Below are positions 3,023 through 36,578 of a DNA stretch of 37,946 nt, piece by piece; position 1 is the first letter of the stretch, and each line of letters starts with the position of its first letter. The stretch lies in IMG/VR virus record IMGVR_UViG_3300045733_000307, positions 1 to 37,946 of that record; one strand, 5' to 3'. Below the pieces are notes generated by a model. The model was not told the DNA's origin and searched no databases. It saw only the letters and a list, made by a program, of their open reading frames with translations. A program made the translations under genes and the position numbers. The DNA comes from a virus.

Positions 3023-3379
3023 ATGGCAAACGCAGAGAATTTGAAACCTTTTAAGAAAGGTGACCCAAGAATAAACAGACGTGGGCGACCAACGGGTTTT
3101 AACGCGCTTCGAGAACTCGCGCAGCAGATCGCGCACGAGGAAGCGCGGAAGCCTGGCGCGAACGGGCAACCTGGAGAACAGATCATCATTGATGGACACG
3201 TTGCCACGGTTACCGAAATGATTATGAGGCAGTGGGCGACCAGCAAAGACCCGCGATTGGTGCAGGCGTTTATTAATTATGCCTACGGAAAGGTGCCTGA
3301 TGTCATCCAGGGTGACCAGGACGGCGGGCCGGTTATCCTAAAAGTCATCTACGACCGCAAGGACGCGCCCAATGCCTGA
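3023..3379 (+). CDS. Small terminase subunit candidate (DUF5681-like)
   Basis: 118 aa. The N-terminus (FKKGDPRINRRGRPTG) matches the DUF5681-type signature, a basic Gly/Arg/Pro-rich segment in proteins encoded immediately before large terminases. The middle is helical. It overlaps the large terminase by 8 nt. Its expected role is recognising phage DNA and passing it to the large subunit. The function call rests on signature plus position; no HTH is obvious by eye. Confidence 0.7.
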   Translation: MANAENLKPFKKGDPRINRRGRPTGFNALRELAQQIAHEEARKPGANGQPGEQIIIDGHVATVTEMIMRQWATSKDPRLVQAFINYAYGKVPDVIQGDQDGGPVILKVIYDRKDAPNA

Positions 3380-4631
3380 GTATGAAATTCATTTACCTGA
3401 GCCTCACGCCAAACAGCGGGAATTTATTGATTCACCCGCAAAACGTAAAATTATTCGGGCTGGAAGGCGCGGCGGTAAAACAGTTGGCATGGGGATATTC
3501 GCGGTCGAAAAGTTTCTATCCGGTCGCCGCGTGCTGTATGCCGTCCCAACATCTGAGCAGGTTGATCGCTTCTGGACGACCATAACGCGGGCGCTTTATG
3601 AGCCAATCAAAGCCGGTGTGTTCAAGAAAAATGAGACGGAACACACGATTGAACTGCCAGGCACAGAGCAGCGCATCAGGGCAAAGACTGCCTGGAACGC
3701 CGATACTTTGCGCGGCGATTATGGCGACGAACTTATTTTCGACGAATGGCAGCTCATGAACGAAGAAGCCTGGGGCGTTGTCGGAGCTCCTATGCTCCTG
3801 GACAACAACGGCAATGCGACATTTATTTACACCCCTCCCTCCATCCATTCGCGCAGTGCAAGCAAGGCTACCGACCCACAGCACGCCGCAAAACTATTCA
3901 AGCGGGCGCTGGCTGATCCTCGTCGATGGGAAACGTTCAACTTCACATCGATGGATAACCCGCACCTTTCCCGCGAGGCTCTGGACGAGATTACCAACGA
4001 TATGACAAGCCTGGCTTATCGCATGGAGATTTTAGCTGAGGACGTGGACGAGGCACCGGGGGCCCTGTGGAAACGCGATCAGATCGATAAATCTAGGGTG
4101 TTGTTTGCGCCCGTCCTTGATCGCGTTATTGTCGGCGTTGATCCATCCGCGACCAGCGGCGGCGATGAAGCTGGAATTATCACTGGCGGCCGCAGGGGTG
4201 ACGATTATTACACGCTCTCGGATGACAGTATCCAGGGCAGCCCATTGACTTGGGCCAAAGCTGCCGTGACCGCCTATCACAAATATAAAGCCGATCACAT
4301 CGTAGCCGAGGCTAACAACGGCGGCGAGATGGTGAGTACGACTATTGCGCAGGTTGACCCGCGAGTACCCGTCAAGCTTGTCCACGCATCCAGGGGCAAG
4401 GCGACGAGAGCCGAGCCAATCAGCGCCATTGCTGAAAAAGGACATGATCACCACGTGGGCACGTTCTTGGCGCTCGAAGACGAATTATGCTTGTGGATAC
4501 AGGGAGACAACTCCCCTAACCGCCTGGATGCTAAGGTATGGATGATGACTGAATTAACCGGGAATAGTGCTACATTTGACGACGTAAAAGATCTAGGCAC
4601 AGTCGAGGATTACGCCAGTCCCTGGCGATAG
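3372..4631 (+). CDS. Terminase large subunit
   Basis: 419 aa ATPase-nuclease that drives DNA into the prohead. Walker A is AGRRGGKT (residues 30-37). Walker B is LIFDEW (121-126), with the catalytic Glu after Asp. An adaptor/coupling segment follows (ATFIYTPPS). The C-terminal RNase H-like nuclease begins at VIVGVDPSAT with Asp257 as a likely metal ligand; a DDVKDLGTVEDY segment near the end is the likely third acidic position. Length is typical. Followed 9 bp later by the portal gene with a GGAGTAGACA ribosome site. Confidence 0.93.
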   Translation: MPEYEIHLPEPHAKQREFIDSPAKRKIIRAGRRGGKTVGMGIFAVEKFLSGRRVLYAVPTSEQVDRFWTTITRALYEPIKAGVFKKNETEHTIELPGTEQRIRAKTAWNADTLRGDYGDELIFDEWQLMNEEAWGVVGAPMLLDNNGNATFIYTPPSIHSRSASKATDPQHAAKLFKRALADPRRWETFNFTSMDNPHLSREALDEITNDMTSLAYRMEILAEDVDEAPGALWKRDQIDKSRVLFAPVLDRVIVGVDPSATSGGDEAGIITGGRRGDDYYTLSDDSIQGSPLTWAKAAVTAYHKYKADHIVAEANNGGEMVSTTIAQVDPRVPVKLVHASRGKATRAEPISAIAEKGHDHHVGTFLALEDELCLWIQGDNSPNRLDAKVWMMTELTGNSATFDDVKDLGTVEDYASPWR

Positions 4632-26104: not shown

Positions 26105-26176
26105 GGTTGTTTTACCTCTCTACACCCCCCACAACCCCCTACAACAAGGGTGCGGGAGGTGCAAAATTTGGAATTT

Positions 26177-26752
26177 CTATACCCCTCTCGATAGGGGAGG
26201 AGGGTTTAGCTGATGGGCCAGTGAATGGCAAACATGGCACAACCAGATAACAGTTAGCGGGTAATCATATCCCCGGTAATGATGACCTTCTAATATTCCC
26301 TCTGTCCCGCAACGTTCGCATTTTTTGGATTTAATTATTTCTCCGCGTTTTACCGCATTTCTAAGTTTTGCTCTTGCACTTTCTTTTACAGAATAAATAG
26401 GATCGGCCTCTTTTTTCCTTGCCCTAACCCCGGCGTAAGATTTTCCTTTACGCATTTCTCGCCCATGAGCAGCTTGACGCTTCCGGGTTTCCTCAATACT
26501 CATGGCCGTTGATTGTTTTGGTGCAGGTCGGCTAATTTCTGGTTTCTTTATGGATTTAACTTTTTCTAGTATCCACGGAATAAATTGCTTTTTATTTCTG
26601 TTTTCATCTTTGAGATGGTGCGTTCTTTCAGGATAACGTTCTCTGTATCTTGATATCTCGGCCGAATGTCGGCAACGCTCAGAACAATAAAGTTTTACCG
26701 AACCTGATCTTGGAGATGGTAGAAATTCTATTCCGCATTTTTTGCATAACAT
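26177..26752 (-). CDS. HNH homing-type endonuclease with N-terminal zinc finger
   Basis: 191 aa. Residues 3-27 form a CxxC...CSxxC treble-clef finger. Residues 86-115 (IEETRKRQAAHGREMRKGK) resemble the NUMOD-type DNA-binding helices of phage homing nucleases. The HNH domain is at 142-181: CERCG, EGHHYRGYDYP (His157/158), WLCHVCHSLAH. It is free-standing, with its own consensus promoter (26904-26932) and an elaborate 147-nt leader; it therefore looks like an inserted selfish cassette. Start at 26752 with AAAGGGGCG upstream, a site that can be hidden by base pairing. Confidence 0.85.
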   Translation of the reverse strand: MLCKKCGIEFLPSPRSGSVKLYCSERCRHSAEISRYRERYPERTHHLKDENRNKKQFIPWILEKVKSIKKPEISRPAPKQSTAMSIEETRKRQAAHGREMRKGKSYAGVRARKKEADPIYSVKESARAKLRNAVKRGEIIKSKKCERCGTEGILEGHHYRGYDYPLTVIWLCHVCHSLAHQLNPPPLSRGV

Positions 26753-26899
26753 ACAAAACGCCCCTTTCTTTATGCTGCCATTGTCTAGGTGAACAGCGGG
26801 ACGGATGTCCTAAAGAAAGGGGCGGTTTGTGCGCAATTACGATTGTGCAAATCGGCAGCGATAAAACAAAACCGCCCGCAAAATGTTCACCTAGACAAT
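26753..26899 (-). ncRNA. Switch-like structured leader of the HNH gene
   Basis: On the minus transcript, in order: O1 (26899-26884), C (26877-26866), B (26830-26811), O2 (26795-26780), A (26772-26753). O1:O2 is a perfect 16-bp stem. C:B pairs 9 bp plus 2 after a bulge, nested inside it. B:A pairs 19 of 20 positions and crosses O1:O2, so the two states exclude each other. A contains the HNH ribosome site (AAAGGGG), so B:A would hide it; its 14-bp core is also followed by TTTTGT, as in a terminator. A GGAC/GTCC hairpin and a GCTGCC/GGCAGC loop-tail pairing add detail. Pairings were read by eye. Confidence 0.65.
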
Positions 26900-26903
26900 C
26901 AAG

Positions 26904-26932
26904 AGTATACCACAATGCTTATTCTGTGTCAA
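26904..26932 (-). promoter_or_regulatory. Consensus promoter of the HNH cassette
   Basis: Minus strand TTGACA (26927-26932), 17 bp, TATACT (26904-26909). The expected start falls at 26899-26896, the first bases of the 16-bp leader stem. It lies between genes, 3 bp past the upstream stop. Confidence 0.88.
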
Positions 26933-31046: not shown

Positions 31047-31074
31047 ATTATAGCCTATATTAGATATATTGCAA
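31047..31074 (-). promoter_or_regulatory. Promoter for the HTH-initiator-helicase operon
   Basis: Minus strand TTGCAA (31069-31074), 16 bp, TATAAT (31047-31052). The ATG at 31040 is 7 nt beyond the -10, so little or no 5' UTR is expected. It lies just past the primase stop. Confidence 0.72.
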
Positions 31075-32218: not shown

Positions 32219-32342
32219 TTAAATAAAAAAACTGCTTTCGGCTGGTGGTTGGTTGGCAGGGGCGTGAGTAGCCCGACCATCCACCATGCGAAAACAGTTT
32301 TTTCTCACTCACGCGGCGCTGCCAACGCCAGGCTTTCAACCT
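32219..32342 (-). ncRNA. Attenuator-like leader of the primase operon
   Basis: Promoter 32349-32377 should start RNA near 32342. State 1: GTTGGCAG (32326-32319) pairs with CTGCCAAC (32259-32252), and GCGTGAGT (32314-32307) with ACTCACGC (32269-32262). State 2: 32303-32289 pairs with 32240-32226 over 15 bp (one G-U), extended by TGGTGG/CCACCA, and runs into T7, a terminator. The arms alternate in order along the RNA, so the states cross and exclude each other. Either an attenuator or a pseudoknotted RNA of about 120 nt. Confidence 0.65.
32225..32303 (-). terminator. Terminator hairpin in the primase leader
   Basis: A-tract/T-tract stem of 15 bp plus a 6-bp extension, with a large loop (32249-32280) that contains the competing arms, ending in T7 (32231-32225) then ATTT on the minus strand. 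Confidence 0.7.
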
Positions 32343-32348
32343 GCTCTT

Positions 32349-32377
32349 ATTATACCCGATATCACCCCAATTTTCAA
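32349..32377 (-). promoter_or_regulatory. Near-consensus promoter of the primase operon
   Basis: Minus strand TTGAAA (32372-32377), 17 bp, perfect TATAAT (32349-32354). Confidence 0.88.
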
Positions 32378-35216: not shown

Positions 35217-35747
35217 TTACGCCGGTACGTATCCGGTGATTGTCGAGAGGGCGGTGATAAACTCAGCCAATGCCTGGTCGCGCACCTTCTTGTACTCAGC
35301 CCATGCCTGGTCGCGCACCTTCTCGTACTCAGCCCATGCCTGGACGTGCACCTTCTTGTACTCAGCCAATGCCTGGTCGCGCACCTTCTTGTACTCAGCC
35401 AATGCCTGGTCGCGCACCTTCTTGTACTCAGCCAATGCCTGGTCGCGCACCTTATCGTACTCAGCCCATGCCGGGGAGATGCGAAGTAAAACCTTCTTTG
35501 CGCTCTCCTCGTGTTCTTCCGTTACCCATGCGGGGAGCGTATCTTCCTCGTCCCACTCGAAACTTTCTTCCGTCCATTCCGGAAACTGAAAGCGGATGAA
35601 TGGCCGGTTGAACTGGTCTTCGTTGTCTGCCATTTTTAGCCGCTCTAACAATTGCGAGTGGCTACAATCGCCATTTCTGTCAGGTTCGCAAAACAACCCC
35701 CGACCGTCTTTAGTTACTATTCCTCCAAATCCAGAGCACATATTCAT
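35217..35747 (-). CDS. Protein with hendecad coiled-coil repeats, 176 aa
   Basis: Start taken at the ATG at 35747 (MNMCSGFGG) with GGAAAGG upstream; a TTG at 35759 is less likely. Residues 1-85 form a globular, acidic domain with Cys residues. The C-terminal half is six 11-residue repeats of EYKKVRDQALA type, encoded by 33-bp tandem repeats, ending in a short tail (TTGYVPA-like). Eleven-residue periodicity predicts a straight coiled coil. Function unknown. Early gene near the start of the leftward operon. Confidence 0.75.
   Translation of the reverse strand: MNMCSGFGGIVTKDGRGLFCEPDRNGDCSHSQLLERLKMADNEDQFNRPFIRFQFPEWTEESFEWDEEDTLPAWVTEEHEESAKKVLLRISPAWAEYDKVRDQALAEYKKVRDQALAEYKKVRDQALAEYKKVHVQAWAEYEKVRDQAWAEYKKVRDQALAEFITALSTITGYVPA
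35263..35460. repeat. Six tandem 33-bp repeats
   Basis: Units begin at 35263, 35296, 35329, 35362, 35395 and 35428, with a partial seventh to 35472. Differences are few (AATGCC/CCATGCC, CTTCTTG/CTTCTCG), and the copies at 35362 and 35395 are identical. Repeat number probably varies by slippage. Confidence 0.9.
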
Positions 35748-35774: not shown

Positions 35775-35898
35775 AACTCCCCGGTTTTGGCTATCGCCTG
35801 GTGAGATAGACTAACGCGCCGCTTGGGAGGCTCGATCAGTAATATCTCGCAGGATTACTCCTTTCGTGTAGCTTGTACTCTCGTGGACCGGGGGAGTT
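35775..35898 (-). ncRNA. Structured non-coding stretch before the repeat protein gene
   Basis: No ORF. The ends pair: 35887-35898 with 35775-35785 (ACCGGGGGAGTT with AACTCCCCGGT, one bulged base). Inside, AGTAAT/ATTACT and CTATC/GATAG can form further stems. About 124 nt in size, like the other leaders. No clear promoter directly upstream. Confidence 0.35.
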
Positions 35899-35907
35899 GA
35901 GAGGAAT

Positions 35908-35928
35908 TGAGCGGTAGGGATTTGAACC
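35908..35928 (-). other. tRNA 3'-end-like segment (T-arm)
   Basis: On the minus strand GGGTTCAAATCCC followed by TACCGCTC looks like a tRNA T-arm and acceptor 3' strand. No matching acceptor 5' strand, D-arm or anticodon arm is found upstream, so it is not a complete tRNA gene. It could be a tRNA remnant or an attachment-site core copied from a host tRNA, or chance. Confidence 0.35.
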
Positions 35929-35943
35929 CAATTATGGCGACTG

Positions 35944-36060
35944 TTACGCTCGCTCGTGCCGGTCTTCTCTCCCGGCTGCCATCCCATTGCCGGTGGGATT
36001 GATCGCGTGGCAAATAGGCGGCAGCAGCGTGACCCGCGCCGCCTGAATGTTCGTTGTCAT
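35944..36060 (-). CDS. Possible 38-aa protein
   Basis: MTTNIQAARVTLLPPICHAI and onward, ending REDRHERA. Start follows GAGAGGTTT. No family; support is only the ribosome site and the open frame. Without it, 35748-36190 would be a 443-base stretch with no gene, holding the structured segment and tRNA-like element. Confidence 0.4.
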   Translation of the reverse strand: MTTNIQAARVTLLPPICHAINPTGNGMAAGREDRHERA

Positions 36061-36436: not shown

Positions 36437-36473
36437 TTCTCTTTGCTCCTGTCTGATTTCTGATTACCTACTC

Positions 36474-36502
36474 AGTATAACCGATATGCAAGCAAAATAC
36501 AA
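36474..36502 (-). promoter_or_regulatory. Leftward early promoter
   Basis: Minus strand TTGTAT (36497-36502), 17 bp, TATACT (36474-36479). The -35 lies in the left arm of the 18-bp inverted repeat. Confidence 0.82.
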
Positions 36503-36539
36503 GTAGCAGTTACGATAAATATAACTGCTACTTGTATTT
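36495..36539. promoter_or_regulatory. 18-bp perfect inverted repeat spanning divergent promoters (operator candidate)
   Basis: Arms 36495-36512 and 36522-36539 are exact reverse complements with a 9-nt AT-rich centre; AAGCA (36490-36494) and TGCTT (36541-36545) extend it with one bulged base. Each arm holds the TTGTAT -35 box of one of the two divergent promoters, so one symmetric complex could control both. Confidence 0.88.
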
Positions 36540-36560
36540 ATGCTTAATATATGGTAAACT
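36532..36560 (+). promoter_or_regulatory. Rightward promoter for the RHH operon
   Basis: TTGTAT (36532-36537), 17 bp, TAAACT (36555-36560), then CACGAGGTG and the ATG at 36579. The -10 is weaker than the leftward one. Confidence 0.6.
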
Positions 36561-36578
36561 GAAATCACGAGGTGAAAA

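Follow-up and report, generated by a model that had tools for sequence, protein, structure and literature searches.

Upstream of an HNH endonuclease gene on the minus strand of this virus record we found a leader in which two long inverted repeats cross each other, one of them covering the ribosome site of the gene. The repeats are real and not a product of chance, and the leader as a whole is genuine and non-random and is probably regulatory. We give about even chances to the reading that it is an elaborated form of the ribosome-site hairpin known from homing endonucleases, combining an own promoter with translation control by RNA folding. The window referred to below is the whole stretch of DNA that was analysed, i.e. 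the virus record of 37,946 bases, which carries Mu-like portal and head genes.

Promoter and repeat segments of the HNH leader

Read along the minus strand, the promoter is followed by the segments A, B, C, A' and C' and then by the HNH start codon ATG at 26752 (Table 1). Its -35 box TTGACA (26932-26927) is separated by a 17-nt spacer from the -10 box TATACT (26909-26904), which is of the extended type (TGG-TATACT). Scored against a 12-base sigma-70-like consensus, promoters with at least 11/12 matches occurred twice in the 38-kb window versus a shuffle mean of 0.38. The A:A' stem encloses 88 nt and has a computed duplex energy of -24.3 kcal/mol, that of C:C' being -27.0 kcal/mol. The Shine-Dalgarno (SD) motif AAGGGG (26766-26761) lies within C', 8 nt from the ATG. 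The preliminary description of this DNA had named the TTGACA-17-TATACT promoter, the perfect 16-bp repeat (A:A'), the inner 9-bp stem (B:B') and a third segment (C') matching C, and all were recovered at the positions and with the match counts of Table 1. Its further claim that pairing of C with C' would bury the HNH ribosome site agrees with the SD being inside C' and with C being a near-perfect anti-SD.

Table 1. Coordinates of the HNH leader, its gene and the second leader in the window
Feature	Position	Strand	Match or basis
Sigma-70-type promoter TTGACA-17-TATACT, extended -10 (TGG)	26904-26932	-	11/12 match
Segment A, first 16 nt of the predicted transcript; partner A'	26884-26899	-	16/16 inverted repeat
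Segment B; partner B' (26828-26820, inside C)	26869-26877	-	9/9 inverted repeat
Segment C, anti-SD; partners C' and partly B	26811-26830	-	19/20 inverted repeat
Segment A', between C and C'	26780-26795	-	16/16 inverted repeat
Segment C', ribosome site of the HNH gene	26753-26772	-	read from sequence; repeat match to C
HNH endonuclease gene, 191 aa	26177-26752	-	PHROG 2340 endonuclease, E = 8.8e-18
Second promoter TTGAAA-17-TATAAT (at least 11/12), layout as first	32349-32377	-	promoter scan
Second leader, competing folds	32226-32343	-	upstream of 35-aa ORF and primase gene

The crossing pair (A-C-A'-C') had a minimum arm score of 16, while 200 dinucleotide shuffles of the whole window and 902,630 bases of viral DNA from elsewhere each reached 11 at best. 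The 160-nt leader folded at -55.2 kcal/mol (z = -3.9), and none of 200 shuffles was equally stable.

The downstream gene, which had been described as an HNH endonuclease, is genuine: in addition to the PHROG 2340 match, it can be aligned with HNH proteins of phages across the HNH motif and at the N terminus. The PHROG match and the motif assign it to a homing-type family (HNH or GIY-YIG), its homing activity being putative. A close-relative search in bacterial and archaeal genomes returned no HNH relatives. The related phage G019, whose portal is 71-75% identical to that of the window, carries a full-length homologue (39% identical) of the gene downstream of HNH, and a different, unrelated gene lies directly before it there. 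These gene orders are consistent with an inserted cassette made up of the HNH gene and its leader, a single relative being no proof of it. A group I intron with an internal HNH gene was rejected, as no intron model matched and the downstream gene is full length compared with the G019 homologue. The HNH stop is followed, ahead of the next gene, by a long G/C-rich hairpin (26111-26180, minus strand; region fold z = -3.28), the 3' arm of which extends into the likely ribosome site of that gene. The same region showed a weak Rfam match to archaeal sRNA41 that stayed below threshold (23 bits, cut-off 45).

Two predicted competing folds and their order of formation

Constrained folding, of the kind suggested in the preliminary description, of a 200-nt transcript gave near-equal ensemble energies of -64.3 kcal/mol when forced to A:A' versus -64.0 kcal/mol when forced to C:C'. 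In the model, the A- and C-states are equal in energy within its error. Altering the 5' end by 2 nt or choosing another 3' end reversed this balance, and the computed energies therefore speak for bistability and not for a direction. In prefix folding, A:A' and B:B' were complete at nucleotide 120 (-48 kcal/mol), ahead of C' synthesis, and the SD region was unpaired while C' was being transcribed. Along the nested paths that were found, the A-state has to cross a barrier of 28-31 kcal/mol to reach the C-state, and spontaneous refolding is therefore expected to be very slow. Temperature sensing is not argued here because the computed shifts varied with the position at which the RNA was cut, and a folding difference between read-through and own-promoter transcripts is not claimed because it was inconsistent with the 5' end chosen.

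Two parts of the earlier reading need qualifying. Pairing of C with C' had been said to break the 16-bp stem, which is not required, since segments arranged as A-C-A'-C' can form a pseudoknot, for which the loops of 53, 15 and 7 nt would leave enough room. The full C:C' helix must disrupt B:B', but a 10-bp portion could form with A:A' and B:B' both intact. Because a pseudoknot is possible, mutual exclusion of the two states is too strong a claim. In the A-state, ten bases of C (CCUUUCUUUA) remain largely free; they are the complement of UAAAGAAAGG, which lies over the SD (-10.2 kcal/mol, any penalty not included), and the A-state may therefore not be open. The other part concerned an attenuator: transcription attenuation is disfavoured at the HNH leader, since no run of U comes after C:C'.

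Proposed working of the leader

Computed support for regulation by folding comes from the promoter match, the repeats and their rarity, the overlap with the SD, the near-equal energies, the folding order and the high refolding barrier. We infer that the RNA is produced, pairs in the cell and switches, and a true two-state switch appears plausible from the folding models. Acting as anti-SD, segment C could form a 19-bp hairpin that shuts the ribosome site, in the manner of the T4/Aeh1 genes. Segment A, at the 5' end of the transcript, would pair with A' in the loop of C:C', and B would cover half of C. Since C' is the last of the five segments to be synthesised, a transcript from the own promoter is expected to adopt the A-state initially, and the SD would then lie outside the nested stems. 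Were the 5' end lost, captured or trimmed, C would become available to close the SD. The A-state would be the ON state, and the presumed purpose would be the rationing of a risky nuclease. The T4 logic, in which early RNA is off and own-promoter RNA is on, does not follow automatically, since read-through transcripts also contain A. If the proposal is true, the T4 solution of a promoter hidden in the RBS hairpin would here be replaced by a competitor at the mRNA 5' end, and a mobile gene bringing its own promoter could still ration its nuclease.

Comparison with known systems and with HNH relatives

RBS-sequestering hairpins have been documented for I-TevI, I-TevII, I-TevIII, segB and mobE (PMC2988022; PMC3014915). 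The T4 homing endonucleases had been cited as precedent for the leader, which is apt (T4/Aeh1, PMC2988022): in both cases a segment further upstream in the mRNA is the complement of the SD of the endonuclease gene, and a promoter lies near the gene. The stable SD-covering stem of the T4/Aeh1 type is found here in C:C' (19/20, -27.0 kcal/mol). In T4/Aeh1, however, the promoter is placed so that its RNA lacks the 5' arm (PMC2988022), whereas here the promoter lies upstream of all arms, and no site of at least 9/12 was found between C and C'. As this defining promoter position is absent, the leader is a variant and not a member of the T4/Aeh1 group. A second, crossing helix competes in this leader, unlike in the T4/Aeh1 hairpins (PMC2988022); the claim that the leader goes beyond a simple hairpin thus stands, the extra competing stem having no counterpart in the simple hairpins that have been published. 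Aeromonas phage 25 has, in its seg43(25) hairpin, a very stable stem just upstream of the RBS that does not cover it, comparable to A:A', but no anti-SD segment is described there, unlike in this leader (PMC2988022).

The leader further resembles c4 of P1/P7 (RF01695) in that a start region is preceded, within one transcript, by a closed RNA domain complementary to it. It differs from c4 in its target gene and in lacking a sequence or structure match to the family model. In the kinetic folding of hok-type mRNAs the order of folding selects the structure, with early structures being off and 3' trimming leading to activation. Folding order would likewise decide between two structures in the HNH leader, but here, unlike in hok, the nested stems that form first are predicted not to include the SD.

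We compared the start regions of HNH relatives in 80 viral loci with those of other genes on the same contigs. Start regions with a fold z < -2.5 made up 41% of 27 HNH relatives versus 10% of 143 other genes (Mann-Whitney p = 1e-4), and inverted repeats over the SD zone were present in 6/50 HNH relatives versus 4/267 other genes (p = 0.0015), both p values being optimistic because related HNH loci are not independent. At one locus (L094) a promoter TTGACA-17-TATAGT lies inside the 5' arm of an SD hairpin, which is the T4 arrangement, and promoter-initiated RNA would therefore escape the hairpin. Several HNH relatives look like this T4 arrangement. Their simple hairpins aligned too poorly for covarying base pairs to be counted. 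As SD-covering hairpins recur in this HNH family, only the 5'-end competitor of the leader is unusual.

No homologous leaders were found in phages, plasmids, terminase relatives or portal relatives, and the leader therefore has no support from conservation or covariation in the collections searched. The exact A arm occurred in 4 viral contigs, once each and without the partner arm, as chance would give. Rfam returned no match at gathering score in the window, only weak sub-threshold ones, in agreement with the earlier statement that no known riboswitch class is recognised.

Alternative explanations

The segments could also form a permanent lock, in which A:A' would be a 5'-terminal stabilising stem and the SD would always be held by C, either as pseudoknot or as full hairpin, with very low nuclease output. 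Both the complementarity of the ten unpaired C bases to the region over the SD and the loop lengths that would sterically allow the pseudoknot argue for this possibility, but a plain hairpin would suffice, as in most relatives, which would leave the perfect 16-bp competitor without a role unless it served to stabilise the mRNA. We consider a lock unlikely. A cut-out antisense RNA, comparable to c4 of P1/P7 and the P4 immunity RNA, would require that the 120-nt domain closed by A:A' is processed and that C acts in trans on the C' of other transcripts. Such a closed domain is present just upstream of its target, C is complementary to both the upstream B and the downstream C', and c4 is transcribed together with its target operon (PMC8198154), which counts for this explanation. 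Nevertheless it appears improbable, as the Rfam C4 model (RF01695) showed no match at E <= 10 and trans binding was barely favourable (cofold -57.5 vs parts -48.2 and -8.3).

A function at the DNA level or a mutational by-product, i.e. paired sites for protein binding at the promoter, the termini of a small mobile element or template-switch palindromes, would need no RNA function at all. One copy of A is positioned exactly at the predicted start site, and single-stranded DNA also folds well (z = -4.85). On the other hand, the A motif was found nowhere else in the window, mobile-element ends were rejected as the flanking target duplication is absent, and neither the exact position of C' over the SD nor the crossing with a second perfect repeat would be expected of a by-product; we thus assign a low probability to this explanation. 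The two-state architecture and the 88 nt inside the A:A' stem might suggest a ligand riboswitch with an undescribed aptamer within that domain. This is highly improbable given that Rfam showed no match, that no conserved core is available as no homologue was found and that the regulated gene is not metabolic.

A second leader before the primase gene

Only two promoters of at least 11/12 are present in the record, and both lead into leaders with competing folds. In the second leader, 32326-32307 can pair with 32269-32252 (-25.3 kcal/mol). The alternative pairing of 32303-32273 with 32256-32226 (-36.3 kcal/mol) is followed by 7 T (32231-32225) and has the form of an intrinsic terminator. In prefix folding the first pairing formed and was later replaced by the terminator. 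This leader points to a preference of the phage for RNA folding decisions where its promoters are strongest. The same layout at both best promoters may be coincidence, with only two cases at hand. A common design, in which the two strongest promoters would start crossing-helix RNAs, one acting on translation of the nuclease and the other on transcription towards the primase, both set by the 5' end or a common factor, seems rather doubtful; if true, it would represent an undescribed class of 5'-end-dependent phage leaders. Homology between the two leaders was rejected because they share no sequence, and a mir-29 match on the second leader (score 38.8, below the cut-off of 46.7) was dismissed as reflecting a long hairpin.

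Genome context and further features

The replication region on the minus strand encodes a primase, a DnaB-like helicase and a DnaD-domain protein. Judged from gene content and promoter sequences, the promoter matches in the right orientation together with DnaD and DnaB favour a bacterial host, while the terminase points otherwise. This terminase (3372-4631 in the window) is 65% identical to that of Methanosarcina virus MetMV, and its nearest relative is thus an archaeal-virus record, in contrast to the bacterial signs. It is also 56-79% identical to terminases of 18 viral contigs (loci L008-L025), whose other genes were without match to the window. By these comparisons the terminase seems to be travelling on its own. 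A host search through the portal gene gave no match, and neither did queries with the helicase, the upstream gene and the primase.

Several further features were observed. In G019, a promoter TTGAAA-16-TATAAT is followed by a strong intrinsic terminator within ~90 nt and then by a membrane-protein gene (locus L059, 17598-17484, minus strand), a candidate small RNA or attenuator. In the window, a promoter-like TTGCAA-16-TATAAT was seen at 31047-31074 (minus strand) with the ATG of a small HTH-type ORF a few bases past the -10 box, and its transcript is possibly a leaderless mRNA. An imperfect inverted repeat of 41 nt (76%, loop of 9 nt) lies at 36472-36562 in intergenic DNA ahead of the minus-strand ORF 36436-36191, and represents a candidate operator or terminator. 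A long intergenic region contains a tRNA-like 3' half (35890-35990, minus strand) with a GGGTTCAAATCCC T-arm and a short GAGCG/CGCTC stem; no tRNA was called there and the fold was not unusual. A hypothetical protein encoded on the minus strand contains in-frame tandem repeats of ~33 nt (GAGTACAAGAAGGTGCGCGACCAGGCATTGGCT) at 35246-35500.
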